From Xenophilus aerolatus (GTDB lineage: Bacteria; Pseudomonadota; Gammaproteobacteria; Burkholderiales; Burkholderiaceae_C): 64,000 nucleotides of DNA. Below, one piece after another: positions 3,125 through 12,106 of the stretch. How positions within the stretch are numbered: the stretch's first letter is position 1; every line of letters starts with the position of its first letter. Position numbers and translations under genes: made by a program. The stretch lies in assembly GCA_029968055.1 (NCBI GenBank), contig JASCNX010000001.1, forward strand, positions 930,001-994,000. Reading direction: 5' to 3'. The notes beneath the pieces are model-generated. The model searched no databases. It was given only the letters and a program-made list of their open reading frames with translations, and had not been told where the DNA came from.

Positions 3125-4642
<1,518 letters not shown>

Positions 4643-4732
4643 GCATCGCCCCCACGCCGGCAGTCGCCATCTCCTCGATAGCCGCTCGCTCGAGCAGACC
4701 AACTCAGCCTCCCCCTGGCTTGAACTCCGCGC

Positions 4733-5374
4733 CTACCAGCGCAGAACGCGAGGGCCGATCAGTGCGCCTGCCGCCACCGGCACCGCCATCCCCAACACGT
4801 ACCACACCGCCAGGAACGGCGCCGTGAGCTCCGGGCAATGCAGCGCATACACAGCCGCGCCCGCTCCCGCGGCCAGTGCACCGGCGGCGGCACCTGCAGC
4901 GGCCGGCCGCGTGGGCGCCAGGCCCTGCAGCGCCAGGAGGGAGGCCACGAACATCGGGAAAGAAATGAGCGTGATGTTGAAGACGCAGGTGCGCCAGGTG
5001 CGCCCCATGAGGGCCGGCATGCGCGCGGTGTCGGGCATCGTCGCCCAGGCCACCGCGGCGAGCACCCAGACCGCGACCACGGGCAGTGCGATGCCGAGCC
5101 ATGCACGGCGCACCGGCACACCGGGGCGCGCCAGCCGCTGCACCATGACGTAGCCGGCCACGCCGATGCACGCGGGCATCAGCACCTTGACCCAGAACAT
5201 CGGCCAGAACATCGCCTGCACCAGGTCGCGGCGCATGCCGTAATCGGCCTGCATGATGGCCAGTGCCACGGGCAGGCTCAGGCCCAGCGCCCACCACAGC
5301 CGGCGACTCACCGCGCGACGCGGGACGGGGTCGGCCCCGGCGGCGAGCATGGCCACGAGGTCGTCGGTCTTCAT
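4733..5374 (-). CDS. nrsF: NrsF-type (DUF1109) membrane anti-sigma factor
   Basis: A 213-aa protein with six predicted membrane segments (for example [57 protein letters not shown]). The two cysteines Cys130 (WRTCVFN) and Cys180 (ALHCPEL) fall where Caulobacter NrsF has its conserved redox/metal-sensing pair (about 131 and 181). In that system NrsF holds sigmaF inactive until metal or oxidative stress modifies the cysteines. The gene overlaps the sigma factor stop by ATGA, so the two are co-translated. Assignment to DUF1109/NrsF is strong; the signal it senses here is inferred. Confidence 0.9.
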
Positions 5375-5919
5375 GCCGCGTCCTTGCGCATGCGCGCCGC
5401 CAGCGCCTTCAGGCCGCGGTGGATGCCGACCTTCACGGCCGATTCCGACATGCCCGTGAGTTTTGCGGTCTCCGCGACCGACAGGCCCTGCAGCTTGACA
5501 TGGACGATCGGCAGCCGATGCCGGTCGGGCAGTTCGGCCAGCAGGCCCTGGACATCGCGCCGCGCGTCGCTGGCCTCGGTGGCCGAATCGGCGAAGAGTT
5601 CCATCTCGTCATCCAGCGGGTCGTGCAGCGCCTCGCGCACCGACTTCGCGCGCAGCAGGTCGATGAGCTTGTAGCGCGCGATCGCATGCGCCCAGGCCGT
5701 CAGCGGCTGGTCGCTCTGGTAGGTGTGGCGCTGGTTGTGCATGGCGAGCAGGCATTCCTGGACGAGGTCTTCCACATCATCGGGCCAGCCGAACAGGCGC
5801 CTGGCGAGGAAGGCGCGCAGATGGCGCGCCATCTGCTGCAGGCACTCGCGGTAGGCGACGGCATCTCCCTGGAGTCCACGCACGAACAGGCCACGCAACT
5901 GCGTCTCGACCTCGCTCAT
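5371..5919 (-). CDS. sigF: ECF sigma factor, sigmaF type
   Basis: A 182-aa ECF sigma factor. Region 2 contains [20 protein letters not shown] and [20 protein letters not shown]; region 4 contains [20 protein letters not shown] and the helix-turn-helix [19 protein letters not shown]. The start at 5919 (MSEVETQL) is preferred; an ATG 33 bases upstream (5952) would sit inside the proposed -10/transcription start region. It is paired with a DUF1109 anti-sigma and faces a bufferin operon, the same arrangement of functions as Caulobacter sigF. A sigmaF-like promoter directly upstream suggests autoregulation. Confidence 0.9.
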
Positions 5920-5942
5920 CGGGGACTGGCTTGTAAGTGTTG

Positions 5943-5968
5943 TTCGTGGCATGGCACCGACGGGTTAC
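5943..5968 (-). promoter_or_regulatory. SigmaF-like promoter of sigF-nrsF
   Basis: Read on the minus strand this is GTAACC, 16 bases, CGAA. As I recall, that is the consensus reported for Caulobacter sigmaF promoters (GTAACC-N16-CGAA). The -35 element is at 5968-5963 and the -10 element at 5946-5943, leaving a short 5' leader before the sigF ATG at 5919. It implies positive autoregulation. Confidence 0.7.
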
Positions 5969-6011
5969 AGCGGCCGCGCTGGAATTTTTTGGCGCGATTG
6001 TGCCCGGCGCT

Positions 6012-6038
6012 GTAACCCGGCCCGCGCCGGGGCCCGAA
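6012..6038 (+). promoter_or_regulatory. SigmaF-like promoter of the bufferin operon
   Basis: On the plus strand GTAACC (6012-6017) is followed after 17 bases by CGAA (6035-6038), 69 bases before the bufA ATG. The -35 and -10 elements are the same as in the divergent sigF promoter, with a one-base-longer spacer. The pair makes bufABCD a predicted direct target of the adjacent ECF sigma factor. Confidence 0.7.
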
Positions 6039-6106
6039 CTAGGGAGGACCGCGCCGGCCGGCAGGTTCTTCGATCCCTTCGTTATCAACGCTCTCAAGGA
6101 GTTCCC

Positions 6107-6394
6107 ATGACCCAACGCAGCCTCGCCATCACCACCCTCGCCCTCGCCGCCCTCGCCAGCGGTGCCGCCATGGCCCAGGACAAGCCCATGGCCGACAAGA
6201 TGGCCAGCATGGAGAAGTGCTACGGCGTCTCCATGGCCGGCAAGAACGACTGCGCCGCCGGCCCCGGCACGACCTGCGCCGGCACCTCGAAGACCGACTA
6301 CCAGGGCAATGCCTGGAAGAACGTCCCCACCGGCACCTGCACGACCATGAAGACGCCCAAGGGCACGGGCTCGCTGACGCCGATCAAGTCCTGA
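6107..6394 (+). CDS. bufA: Bufferin precursor (DUF2282, BufA1-like)
   Basis: A 95-aa precursor with a Sec signal peptide (residues 1-23, ending GAAMA before QDKP) and a core carrying four cysteines: Cys38 (EKCYGV), Cys49 (KNDCAAG), Cys57 (TTCAGT) and Cys78 (GTCTTM). This Cys pattern and the AGKNDCAAG and CAGTSK motifs are those of DUF2282/bufferins: RiPP metallophores whose cysteines are post-translationally modified by the MNIO enzyme and which protect against copper. A strong Shine-Dalgarno sequence AAGGAG (6096-6101) lies 5 bases before the ATG. It is the first gene of bufABCD. Family assignment is strong; the metal and the exact modification in this organism are inferred. Confidence 0.92.
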
Positions 6395-6411
6395 TCGCCC
6401 CGGAGTCCGCC

Positions 6412-7254
6412 ATGTCCGCGCCGTTGACCGCCGGCCTGGGCCTCAAGCCCGAGCACTTCGACGCCGCGCTCGCCGAGCGCGCGCCGGGACTCTGGTTCGA
6501 GGTCCATCCGGAGAACTACAGCGTGGCGGGCGGACCGCGCCTGGCCTGGCTGGAGGCGATCCGCCGCCAGCATCCGCTGTCGCTGCATGGCGTGTCGCTC
6601 TCGCTCGCGGGCGAGGCACCGCCCGATGCACTTCAGCTGCAACGGCTCGCTGCGCTGGTTCGGCGCTTCGAGCCCGCGCTGGTGTCGGAGCACCTGGCCT
6701 GGTCGCGCTTCGAGGGCGCCTACCTGCCCGACCTGCTGCCCTGCCCGCGCAGCCATGCGCTGCTGCGGCGCCTGGTCGACCACGTCGATCAGGTCCAGCA
6801 GGCACTCGGGCGGCGCATCGCCATCGAGAACCCCTCGCACTATCTGCACCTGCCCGGCCACGACTGGGAAGAGACCGACTTCCTGCGCGAGCTGGTGCGT
6901 CGCAGCGGCTGTGGGCTGCTGCTGGACATCAACAACGTGCACGTCTCGGCGCGCAACCTCGGCTTCGATGCCGCGGACTACCTCGATCGCTTTCCGGCCG
7001 ACGCCGTGATGGAGATCCACCTGGCCGGCCACACGGCCGACCCGGTGCATGGCGAGACGCTGCTGATCGACTCGCACGACGCGCCGGTGGCGCCGGCGGT
7101 GTGGTCGCTCTATGCCCGCTTCGTCGAACGCGCCGGGCCGCGGCCGACGCTGGTCGAGCGCGATGGCAATGTGCCCGCCTTCGACGAACTCATGGCCGAG
7201 CGCGAGCATGCCGCCGCGGTCGCCGAAGGCCTGGCCGCGGACACCCCGGCATGA
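6412..7254 (+). CDS. bufB: DUF692 MNIO enzyme modifying the bufferin (BufB)
   Basis: A 280-aa TIM-barrel protein of the DUF692/MNIO family (multinuclear non-haem iron-dependent oxidases). Metal-ligand motifs are visible in order: [63 protein letters not shown] and LVERDGNVP. In bufferin biosynthesis this enzyme, with its partner, converts precursor cysteines into oxidised heterocycles (thiooxazoles). The start at 6412 ([12 protein letters not shown]) is where family similarity begins, 17 bases after bufA. The stop overlaps bufC (ATGA), as expected for an enzyme/partner pair. Confidence 0.93.
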
Positions 7255-8024
7255 CGGCCCTTCGCTGCTTCGAGCAGGCGTTCGTCGGCGCGTTGTTCGC
7301 CGACGAGGCGCATGGCGCCCATGCATCCGGCTGGGCCGCGCAGCCCGGCTTCGCGGTCTATCGCAACACCGTCCACAAGGGCTGCATCGACGCGCTGGAA
7401 GCCAACTTCCCTGCCGTCGCGCGGCTGGTCGGCCGCGACTGGCTGCGCGCGGCCGCCGCCCGGCACCTGGCCGAGCACCCGCCGCGCGACCCGTGCCTGC
7501 TGCACTACGGCGAAGGCTTCGCCGAGACACTGGCCGAACTGGCCGGCGACGATCTGCCCTACCTGGCCGGCGTCGCGACAATCGACCGCCTGTGGACCGC
7601 ATCGCACACGGCCGCCGACGCGCCCGTGCTGCCGCACGACGCATTGGCCGCCCTGCCGCCCGAGGCGCTGGCCGCCCTGCCCCTGACACCGCACCCGGCC
7701 ACGCGGTGGCATGCGTCCGAGGCCCTGCCGCTGCACAGCATCTGGTCGGCCAACCGCAGCGGCGAGGCGGCCGCGCTGGCAGCGCTCGCGACCCTCGAGT
7801 GGGCCGGCGAAGGCACGCTGCTCACACGGCCGGTGGCCGAGGTGATCTGGCAGCCGCTGCCCGTGGGCGGCTGCGTCTTCCTCGACGCCTGCGCACGCGG
7901 CGAGCGGCTGGACGCTGCCGCCGCGGCGGCACTCGACGCCCGCCCCGACACCGACCTCGCCGCCCTGCTCGCGCAGCTGCTGCAGGCCGGCACCTTCACC
8001 ACTTCAACAGGGAGCCCACCATGA
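7251..8024 (+). CDS. bufC: DUF2063 partner protein of the MNIO enzyme (BufC)
   Basis: A 257-aa protein. The N-terminal DUF2063 domain shows [53 protein letters not shown] and [14 protein letters not shown]; the Ala-rich C-terminal part is less conserved. DUF2063 proteins, once annotated as putative DNA-binding, are the obligate partners of DUF692 enzymes and are thought to bring the precursor peptide to them. The ATG at 7251 overlaps the bufB stop and its own stop overlaps bufD (ATGA), so the three are translationally coupled. Confidence 0.9.
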
Positions 8025-8476
8025 AATCCGCCACCACCACTCCCCCGTCCGGCGCCTTGGAGCGCGTCACCGAGCGCCTCGGCGCGCTGGTGCCGCACGA
8101 CCTGCTCGCGCTGGTCGACCGCGTCGCCATCGGCGCCATCTTCTGGCTCTCTGGCCGTACCAAGGTCGATGGTTGGCTGCACGTCACCGACGGCGCGGTC
8201 GAGCTGTTCCGCACCGAATACCACCTGCCGCTGCTGCCCCCTGAGATCGCCGCGCATCTGGCCGCCTACGCCGAGCACGCCTTTCCGATCCTGCTGGTGC
8301 TGGGCCTGTTCACGCGCTTCGCAGCGCTCGCGCTGCTGGGCATGACGGTGGTAATCCAGGTCTTCGTGTACCCCGACGCCTGGCCGACCCACCTCTCGTG
8401 GGCCGGGTTGCTGCTGTACCTGGTCGGGCGCGGCGGCGGCCGGCTGTCGATGGACCGGCTGCTGCGCATCGGCTGA
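8021..8476 (+). CDS. bufD: DoxX-family membrane protein (BufD)
   Basis: A 151-aa DoxX-like protein with about four hydrophobic segments: LVDRVAIGAIFWLSGRTKVD, AYAEHAFPILLVLGLFTRFA, LALLGMTVVIQVFVYPDAWP and SWAGLLLYLVGRGGGRLSMD. DoxX proteins commonly close DUF2282-DUF692-DUF2063 operons (BufD); their role there is unknown, with redox or metal handling at the membrane proposed. The start at 8021 overlaps the bufC stop. The frame is open far upstream but has no family similarity there. Confidence 0.88.
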   Translation: MKSATTTPPSGALERVTERLGALVPHDLLALVDRVAIGAIFWLSGRTKVDGWLHVTDGAVELFRTEYHLPLLPPEIAAHLAAYAEHAFPILLVLGLFTRFAALALLGMTVVIQVFVYPDAWPTHLSWAGLLLYLVGRGGGRLSMDRLLRIG

Positions 8477-8540
8477 TCGCCACGCCCGTGACGGCTTCGG
8501 CCCCGGTGCCCGCCGGGCGCGCGCTGCAGGCCGGTCGCGT

Positions 8541-8561
8541 CCCGGGCAGCGGGTGCCCGGG
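8541..8561. other. Perfect 8-bp hairpin between bufD and the URC operon
   Basis: CCCGGGCA, a 5-base loop (GCGGG), then TGCCCGGG. It lies 64 bases after the bufD stop without a T-tract, so a canonical Rho-independent terminator is unlikely. It could be a terminator stem of the Rho-dependent kind or an operator near the next promoter. Confidence 0.35.
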
Positions 8562-8603
8562 GGCGCCCCTCGGTCGCCTACGCCGAAAGGCGAAAAGGGC
8601 GGC

Positions 8604-8632
8604 TTGCCAGCCCCGGGGGCACTCGCTACATT
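8604..8632 (+). promoter_or_regulatory. Candidate sigma70 promoter of the URC operon
   Basis: TTGCCA (8604-8609), 17 bases, TACATT (8627-8632). Five of six and four of six bases match the -35 and -10 consensus with ideal spacing. It ends 20 bases before the first URC gene ATG. Confidence 0.45.
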
Positions 8633-8652
8633 GTGTTTTTTGAGGGCCTGCA

Positions 8653-10013
<1,361 letters not shown>

Positions 10014-10017
<4 letters not shown>

Positions 10018-11420
10018 GCACCGAGAACTACGGCATCGACCCCGACCGCCCCACGCACAACCTGGCGGTGCGCTCCGCCGCACCCGACGGCCAGGTCGAC
10101 CCGGCCGTCGAGTTCGTGCCCGATGCCCACCGGCCGGCCGCGGCCGCCGCCTACCTGCGCACCACCGGCGCCATCCGCACGCGTGCGGCCGCCCTGCTCG
10201 CACGCGCCCGGCGCGGCGAGTCGGCGTGGTTCCGCGTCGGCGATGCCAACGCGCTCGAAGACGCGGCCCGCGAGGTGGCCGAGGTCACGCGCGACCGCTA
10301 CGACTGGGGCCCCATTCCGTACCACAGCCGCTGGCGCCATTTCGAGGCCGGCGGCGTCGACCGCCTCGCGCAGCTCGACGCCCTGCTCGAAGGCGCCACG
10401 CCGCGCGAGCGGGCCAGGGCGCACATCGACCTGGTGGTGGTCAGCGTGCTGCTGGATGCCGGTGCCGGCCCCGACTGGCACTACACCGAGTCCGCCAGCG
10501 GCCAGCGCTTCTCGCGCTCCGAAGGCCTGGGCGTGGCCAGCTTCCATGCCTTCACGAGCGGGCTGTTCTCCTCCGACCCCGAACGGCCGCTGCAGGCCGA
10601 CGCGGCGGGCCTGCGCGCCTTGGTGGGCGACCGGCTGGCGCAGGCCTTCCAGGCCAGCGAGGCCAACCCGCTGGTGGGCCTGACCGGCCGCACCATCCTG
10701 CTGCGGCGGCTGGGCGAGGTGCTGTCGGAACAGCCCGAGGTCTTCGGCACCACGGTGCAGCGCCCGGGCGGCCTGTTCGACATGCTGGTCTCGCCCGACG
10801 GCGCCGCCGTCCCGCCCACGGCCGACATCCAGGCGCATGCCATCCTCACGCAGTTGCTGATGTCGCTGTCGTCGATCTGGCCGGCGGCCAACCGCGTCGA
10901 CAGCCTGGCGGCCGACGGGAGCGACGTGCTGCCCGGCGGCGGCGATCCGGCCCTCGCGCTGGGCGACTGCTGGCGCCACAGCGCCGTGCAGGGCCCGGGC
11001 CTGACCAACGGCTGGATGCCCTTCCACAAGCTCTCGCAGTGGCTCACCTACTCGCTCATCGAACCCTTCGAATGGGCCGGGGTGCAGGTGCGCGGCCTGG
11101 ACCGCCTCACGGCCCTGCCCGAATACCGCAACGGCGGCCTGCTGCTCGACAGCGGCGTGCTGGTGCCGCAGGACCCGGCGGCCCTCGACAAGACCTGGCG
11201 CGTGGGCGACGAGTTCATCGTCGAGTGGCGCGCCCTGACCGTGGCGCTGCTCGACGAGCTGGCGCCGCTGGTGCGCAAGAACCTGCAGAAGGACGAGGCC
11301 GAGATGCCCCTGGCCTGCGTGCTCGAAGGCGGCACCTGGGCCGCGGGCCGGGCGCTGGCCCAGCGCTTGCGTGGGGGTACGCCGCCCCTGAAGATCGAAA
11401 GCGACGGCACCGTGTTCTGA
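10014..11420 (+). CDS. DUF1688 / URC4-like uracil catabolism protein
   Basis: A 468-aa DUF1688 protein; conserved-looking blocks are [64 protein letters not shown] and [23 protein letters not shown]4 is required for growth on uracil in the yeast pathway, but its reaction is not settled as far as I know. The ATG overlaps the URC1 stop (ATGA), so the two proteins are made together. Soluble, no signal peptide. Confidence 0.88.
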
Positions 11421-11476
11421 ACCGCTGTCACACTCCGCCCCCAACTGCACAGAACAACGATTTCTTCCCCGACACC

Positions 11477-12106
11477 ATGAGCAACGTCCACGTCATCGAC
11501 CACCCCCTCGTCCAGCACAAGCTGTCGCTGATGCGCCGCAAGGACGCATCGACCAACAGCTTTCGCCGCCTGCTCAACGAGCTGAGCATGCTGATGGCCT
11601 ATGAGGTCACGCGCGACATGCCGATGCAGGACATCGAGATCGAGACCCCGCTGGAGACCATGACCACCAAGGTCATCGACGGCAAGAAGCTGGTGCTGGT
11701 GTCGATCCTGCGCGCCGGCAACGGCATCCTCGAAGGCATGCTGAGCGTGGTGCCGGGCGCGCGCGTGGGCCACATCGGCTTGTACCGCGACCCGAAGACG
11801 CTCACGGCGGTCGAGTACTACTTCAAGATGCCCAGCGAGATGGACAGCCGCGACATCATCGTGGTCGACCCGATGCTGGCCACCGGCAACTCGGCCACCG
11901 CCGCCGTCGAGCGGCTCAAGGAGCTGTCGCCGAAGTCGATCAAGTTCGTCTGCCTGCTCGCCTGCCCCGAAGGCATCAAGACCTTGCAGGAAGCGCACCC
12001 CGACGTGCCGATCTACACCGCCGCCATCGACCGCCAGCTCAACGAGCACGGCTACATCCTGCCGGGCCTGGGCGACGCGGGCGACCGCATCTTCGGGACG
12101 AAATGA
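11477..12106 (+). CDS. upp: Uracil phosphoribosyltransferase
   Basis: A 209-aa UPRT. The PRPP-binding loop is [20 protein letters not shown], the substrate region is [15 protein letters not shown], and the C-terminal uracil-binding signature is [17 protein letters not shown]. It makes UMP from uracil and PRPP. Placed directly after URC1 and URC4 it probably feeds that pathway (the yeast route is thought to start from the nucleotide level) in addition to salvage. The start at 11477 gives [17 protein letters not shown], the usual UPRT N-terminus. Confidence 0.95.

Follow-up and report, generated by a model that had tools for sequence, protein, structure and literature searches.

Positions 4733-8476 of a 64,000-nucleotide stretch of Xenophilus aerolatus DNA (assembly GCA_029968055.1, contig JASCNX010000001.1, positions 930,001 to 994,000 of the forward strand; hereafter the window) carry six genes in two divergent operons, one for a sigma factor and its anti-sigma factor and the other, bufABCD, for a bufferin. 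On the minus strand lie nrsF (4733-5374), encoding a membrane anti-sigma factor of the NrsF/DUF1109 family (PF06532, 6.7e-70, 235.5 bits, cut-off 26.8), and sigF, an extracytoplasmic function (ECF) sigma factor gene of the ECF16 type, whose longest open reading frame (ORF) spans 5371-5952 (Sigma70_r2; Sigma70_r4_2, 2.9e-13) and overlaps that of nrsF by 4 nt. On the plus strand follow bufA (6107-6394), encoding a 95-residue Buf1 (DUF2282) bufferin precursor (PF10048, 4.9e-25, 87.7 bits, cut-off 22.4), bufB (6412-7254) for an MNIO (DUF692) bufferin maturase (MbnB_TglH_ChrH, PF05114, 6.4e-99, 330.9 bits, cut-off 25), bufC (7251-8024) for a DUF2063 partner protein (PF09836, 3.5e-20, 72.5 bits, cut-off 27.2), and bufD (8021-8476) for a DoxX-family membrane protein (PF07681, 8.4e-20, 71.6 bits, cut-off 23.6). 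A gap of 17 nt separates bufA from bufB, and the bufB/bufC and bufC/bufD overlaps are both ATGA. The order bufA, bufB (MNIO), bufC (DUF2063 partner) with a DoxX gene is that of Buf1 clusters, and MNIO, DUF2282 and NrsF each have a single match in the whole genome. Judged from the sequence, the locus is very probably a single-copy Buf1 operon with its own SigF-NrsF switch, and a new example of a published system. A preliminary description of this DNA had the coordinates and gene content right, with all six genes exactly where it placed them; the divergence of an ECF sigma/anti-sigma pair from bufABCD that it proposed is borne out by the Pfam and NCBIfam families and the coordinates, and its view of a complete sigmaF-NrsF and bufferin module is supported by the protein families, the fold of BufC and the promoters.

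Caulobacter SigF recognises GTAACC-N16-CGAA (Kohler 2012, PMC3511200), and the ECF16 consensus has been given as tGTAACc-N16-CGAA (PMC3420878). Two predicted promoters of this type face outwards between sigF and bufA. The first, GTAACC-N16-CGAA at 5943-5968 on the minus strand, precedes sigF-nrsF and matches the Caulobacter motif; the second, GTAACC-N17-CGAA at 6012-6038 on the plus strand, precedes bufABCD and would place the transcription start about 63 nt ahead of the bufA ATG. When the 5.1-Mb genome was scanned, with the reversed pattern as control, TGTAACC-N14..17-CGAA matched only at these two sites (control, 0). The shorter GTAACC-N16/17-CGAA matched six times (before sigF, bufA and msrP, and three times inside ORFs) against three in the control, and of the six only the sigF and msrPQ matches have the N16 spacing. 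The three other N17 matches (L090, L092 and L093) were set aside as chance because they lie inside long ORFs. Since a predicted SigF promoter faces both operons, and the N16 form is found otherwise only before msrPQ, this distribution supports the reading of the locus as a SigF-controlled bufferin operon. A bufA promoter elsewhere is argued against by the intact promoter elements in close relatives. A scan of 4600-8700 for sigma-70 promoters gave a sole match at 8604, ahead of the next gene, and none before bufA. The same interval held three terminator-like matches (0.8 expected), one at 5968-5981 on the plus strand within the inter-promoter T tract and two inside genes, to which no role is given.

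The promoter facing sigF also bears on where that gene begins. It overlaps the first bases of the ORF, and because the ATG at 5952 falls inside it, the protein more likely starts at Met12, with the ATG at 5919; this is the one correction to the preliminary description. In Bradyrhizobium, the mapped start site of ecfF overlaps the annotated ATG, and the authors consequently preferred a distal start (PMC3420878).

Relatives were surveyed in two sets of genomes. Among 250 genomes of the order, NrsF was matched in 44 (40 over the cut-off) and DUF2282 in 84; among 299 of the family, NrsF was matched in 61 (60 over the cut-off). The fetched loci are not independent, since several of the named loci duplicate unnamed ones and the sample is dominated by related genera. 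Where sigF and bufA are divergent (n = 33, including the window), the strict motif precedes bufA in 29 loci, sigF in 28 and both in 25. In 11 loci of other arrangement, seven have it before bufA and five before sigF. By comparison, only one of 46 bufA genes with no sigF in the same piece carries the motif; these come from 40 pieces, chosen by hand from a longer listing, in which no SigF-like gene exceeded 60 bits. That sole exception (L083) belongs to a genome with sigF-nrsF on another contig. Conversely, among 54 sigF loci without bufA the strict sigF motif is present in 20, many of the others being of a distant clade or having roughly estimated starts. A named set of 80 loci and two Cupriavidus records, which overlaps the other fetched set, had the motif before bufA in 22, sigF in 24 and both in 21 of 25 divergent loci, and before bufA in six and sigF in three of nine loci of other arrangement; one locus showed no sigF, and the sigF motif was present in 46 of 47 loci without bufA, 35 of them Variovorax by title. 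This count scores L217 and L218 as lacking the bufA motif through a misjudged gene start; the motif is present in both. The motif offers a simple sequence test for which bufferin operons are likely to be under SigF. In three loci (L010, L012 and L017) one more SigF motif lies some 400 nt from that of bufA and in the same direction, a hint that sigF and bufA are separated there by an additional small gene.

The motif also marks genes unlinked to sigF. The N16 match before msrPQ lies at G000:C4:418844-418869, 70 nt before msrP. MsrP was identified at 477.2 bits (cut-off 207), and MsrQ, truncated where the piece ends, scored 117.4 of 130 bits for MsrQ and 124.6 of 650 for MamZ. Among the matches listed, 34 genomes with nrsF over the cut-off were compared with the first 26 without nrsF: the strict motif precedes msrP in 16 of the former and one of the latter (Fisher p 1.7e-4, phylogeny ignored). 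Five unlinked bufA genes in nrsF genomes were also examined (G210, G098 and G076:C90 were left out), and three carry the motif (L083/L300, L297 and L301). Many Variovorax loci (L101, L114, L115 and many of L219-L257) have sigF-nrsF with no adjoining buf operon, and three such genomes were checked. In Variovorax G438 and G353, sigF-nrsF and the motif before msrP are retained and DUF2282 has no match; G503 has sigF-nrsF with no adjacent buf genes and an unlinked bufA with the motif.

The spacing of the bufA promoter sets the Xenophilus group apart. Spacers of bufA promoters are 16 nt in 33 cases and 17 nt in three (25 and three in the named set), and those of sigF promoters 16 nt in 52 and 15 nt in one. 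Among the bufA promoters examined, a 17-nt spacer is found only in the window and in loci of four close relatives (L104; L105, on the same contig as L218; L215; L217); in X. arseniciresistens the spacer is 16, and its congener L111 has only degenerate elements. Both promoter elements are constant in the five N17 loci while the spacer sequence varies, and the N17 promoter would for this reason appear to be functional, though possibly weaker.

Between the two promoters of the window lies a block of 43 nt (5969-6011) with a T/A tract and, on the minus strand, a GCACAAT word directed toward sigF. The word AAAAAT, on either strand, occurs between the promoters in 40 of 59 facing pairs, against a maximum of ten for any word in 100 base shuffles with relatedness uncontrolled, an enrichment that fits A/T-rich upstream elements. 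GCACAAT or CACAATC occurs in 17 of 55 pairs (known repeats removed), always toward sigF and never in the opposite orientation. A possible function is that of a housekeeping -10 element giving basal transcription of sigF, which would agree with the reported RpoD dependence of rpoQ-rsqA, the corresponding pair of Cupriavidus metallidurans (PMC10304878); against this, the scan of 4600-8700 found no full sigma-70 promoter at this site.

SigF has sigma regions 2 and 4 beside an NrsF/DUF1109 anti-sigma factor, the pairing that characterises ECF16 SigF-NrsF systems, and scores 305.5 bits for NCBIfam PRK12536 (cut-off 250). The two conserved Cys of NrsF are both present. Of 182 aligned rows, 181 have Cys130 and 161 have Cys180, and Glu replaces the latter in 17 of the remaining 21. 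By position number, without alignment, they match Caulobacter C131/C181 and Bradyrhizobium C129/C179, for which roles have been published (PMC3511200, PMC3420878). The closest named relatives of the protein, at 90-91% identity, are from Xenophilus sp. E41, Xenophilus aerolatus E41, Comamonadaceae bacterium ALPHA2B and two metagenome-assembled genomes (MAGs); that of X. arseniciresistens is 66% identical. A distant NrsF clade (L030-L046; 17 of 182 rows) has Glu as the second sensor residue. Two loci, L009 (G116) and L011 (G164), have two nrsF-like genes beside one sigF, and in each one nrsF has its own upstream SigF motif. A further sigF-nrsF locus, with an NrsF 47% identical to that of the window, lies on a MAG contig titled Klebsiella pneumoniae (L281), where a mislabelled bin is suspected.

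BufA was described beforehand as a four-Cys bufferin precursor, and its DUF2282 match and Cys residues at 38, 49, 57 and 78 agree with this. All four Cys columns are conserved in 117 of 118 aligned rows, and the N-terminus, read by eye, is Sec-like, with n, h and c regions ending in AMA-Q. Against PDB sequences, BufA gave only two LIM-protein matches (E 0.19 and 0.45), regarded as chance. BufB scores 362.6 bits for the NCBIfam MNIO_BufB equivalog NF050167 (cut-off 310) and aligns with PDB 3bww, 8hci_D and MbnB. A sequence search of PDB with BufC gave nothing at E 0.1. Its AlphaFold model, built on an alignment of 18 sequences, is confident (pLDDT 91.9) and has three Foldseek matches below E 0.001, the best being 3dee (NGO1945) and the others chain A of TglHI in 8hci and 8hi7 (TM 0.54-0.59); chain A is taken as TglI, chain D being the DUF692 protein. 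By its modelled fold, BufC is the type of partner expected for bufferins, PME type 1, the class that combines DUF2063 with an RRE-like domain.

A mechanism can be proposed in which NrsF, in the inner membrane, would retain SigF until its own two conserved Cys are acted on by metal, in the first place copper, or by oxidants. SigF, once freed, is predicted to act at the GTAACC-CGAA promoters of sigF-nrsF and bufABCD and at a third, unlinked one before msrPQ. By analogy with characterised relatives, BufB and BufC would then turn the inner pair of BufA Cys into thiooxazoles, and the peptide would leave through Sec, its outer Cys pair forming a disulphide. Mature bufferin may bind excess copper in the periplasm, where MsrPQ would repair oxidised Met. 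What the sequence itself shows is the genes and their families, the BufC fold, the promoter motifs and the co-occurrence of these motifs with nrsF; the response to metals, the modification of the peptide and its binding of copper are inferred. The predicted control of buf by SigF is supported by the motif, its co-occurrence with nrsF and the published relatives.

A number of observations weigh against this account. The bufA spacer of the window is 17 rather than 16. NrsF, at 167.8 bits, falls short of the 300 bits of the NCBIfam equivalog AntiSigF_NrsF (NF042994) and is assigned only to the broader Pfam family, and BufC and BufD lie below the cut-offs of the HvfC (19.6 versus 142 bits) and HvfX (44.6 versus 80 bits) models. 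The strict motif is absent before msrP in 18 of the 34 nrsF genomes among the matches listed, and before sigF in 34 of the 54 sigF loci without bufA. Two of the five unlinked bufA genes also lack it (L060 and L065); they come from genomes G112 and G119, whose NrsF (L039 and L043) has Glu for the second Cys, and the sigF-linked bufA of G112 (L039) does carry the motif. In published work, Caulobacter sigF is weakly autoregulated and CC2748 (msrP) only partly SigF-dependent (PMC3511200), deletion of rpoQ raised the expression of the gig operon, the C. metallidurans counterpart of buf, in metal-treated cells (PMC10304878), and homologous promoters of Sinorhizobium meliloti were unresponsive to H2O2, Cd and chromate (PMC6180224).

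As a rival account, bufABCD could be driven mainly by another regulator or the housekeeping sigma factor, with SigF auxiliary or redundant, and the 40 bufA-bearing pieces without a SigF-like gene indicate that bufferin operons can use other control. Such an arrangement is unlikely here, as the motif tracks linked sigF in the counts given above, the sigma-70 scan found no promoter before bufA, the Caulobacter buf promoter is reported to be solely SigF-dependent (PMC3511200), and the authors of the 2023 C. metallidurans study, having identified no gig promoter, nonetheless assume RpoQ control themselves (PMC10304878). Nor is it probable that the bufA promoter has been disabled by its 17-nt spacer, with buf no longer SigF-induced in the Xenophilus clade. 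The rarity of this spacer, its restriction to the window and close relatives, and the chance-like appearance of the other N17 matches in the genome speak for such a loss, but the buf genes remain intact, and the constancy of both elements in the five loci suggests function; we regard this loss as very unlikely.

The primary signal could be oxidant damage (HOCl, Met oxidation), with copper secondary and the bufferin one payload of an oxidative-stress regulon. The motif before msrPQ in the window genome, the Variovorax genomes that keep it with sigF-nrsF and no DUF2282 match, and the recurrence of Msr genes in ECF16 regulons that respond to HOCl or H2O2 all favour this idea. The SigF-dependent genes of Caulobacter, however, were induced by Cr and Cd and not by reactive-oxygen generators (PMC3511200), and copper induces sigF-nrsF, buf and msrPQ in C. 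crescentus (PMC8224329). We consider an oxidant as the primary signal rather unlikely. A broader reading can tentatively be offered as a possibility, in which the ECF16 regulon of Burkholderiales would be a periplasmic metal and oxidant module that often includes msrPQ among its targets and carries bufABCD as a detachable payload, read through near-identical promoters even when unlinked. The longer spacer of the Xenophilus group would have detuned only the bufA promoter, so that autoregulation and MsrPQ precede the costly bufferin, and in Cupriavidus RpoQ would read gig while a second motif-reading ECF factor masks its loss. If the 17-nt spacer does matter, it would be a natural one-base change setting the order of a stress response.

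The genes around the locus belong to unrelated families, with a HerA-like ATPase gene before it and consecutive GTP-cyclohydrolase-like, DUF1688 and uracil phosphoribosyltransferase genes after it (8653-12106), which we take to be a URC-type uracil catabolism set. An Rfam scan of 4500-8700 gave no matches.

The preliminary description rated the locus too highly as a novelty, since sigma factor and NrsF genes have been described as parts of Buf1 clusters (PMC12452194) and SigF control is likewise in print for Caulobacter (PMC3511200, PMC8224329). Among the papers listed by a literature search pairing Xenophilus with bufferin, DUF692, NrsF or DUF2282, none mentions Xenophilus. As in the window, the ECF16 pair RpoE7-EcfR7 of S. 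meliloti is divergent from a DUF692/DUF2063 operon (SMb20530-20527); motifs were predicted on either side, and overexpressing RpoE7 caused activation (PMC6180224). That study describes the first and the fourth gene of the operon only as conserved hypothetical proteins and found no inducing signal. Bradyrhizobium EcfF-OsrA and Brucella BcrS-AbcS share with the window an NrsF-type anti-sigma factor with two conserved Cys and a GTAAC...CG motif, and their regulons include methionine sulfoxide reductases. In these two systems oxidants are the signals, and a bufferin operon is not among the features named in the text available.

The rpoQ-rsqA/gigPABT genes of C. metallidurans CH34 form the same divergon as the window, with an NrsF 42.7% identical. 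The gap between rpoQ and gig (L153) contains GTAACC-N16-CGAA facing both rpoQ and gigP; on the megaplasmid as a whole the motif count is not above chance (four versus seven in the reversed control), and the facing pair is the evidence. Despite the same divergon and motifs, RpoQ is not essential for gig by the published genetics, and both rpoQ and gig are up-regulated by a metal mix (2024, PMC11647585). A predicted SigF-type promoter is present before gig, and the genetics indicates that it is not the only route to gig expression. This bears on the puzzle that neither a gig promoter nor RpoQ dependence has been found in C. metallidurans, yet the expected promoter pair is there in the sequence.

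The closest parallel is Caulobacter crescentus/vibrioides, where SigF-NrsF, CC3254-CC3257 (Buf1) and CC2748 (MsrP) make up the same gene sets as in the window genome, and GTAACC-N16-CGAA promoters precede sigF, buf and msrP alike, apart from the spacer of 17 before bufA of the window. The buf start site is at -61 in Caulobacter and predicted at about -63 in the window. Caulobacter has a second SigF-controlled cluster, CC2907-CC2905, whereas the window genome has a single MNIO gene. With this comparison a Xenophilus-like genome joins the SigF-bufferin scheme already published, and its promoters are predicted to the single base.

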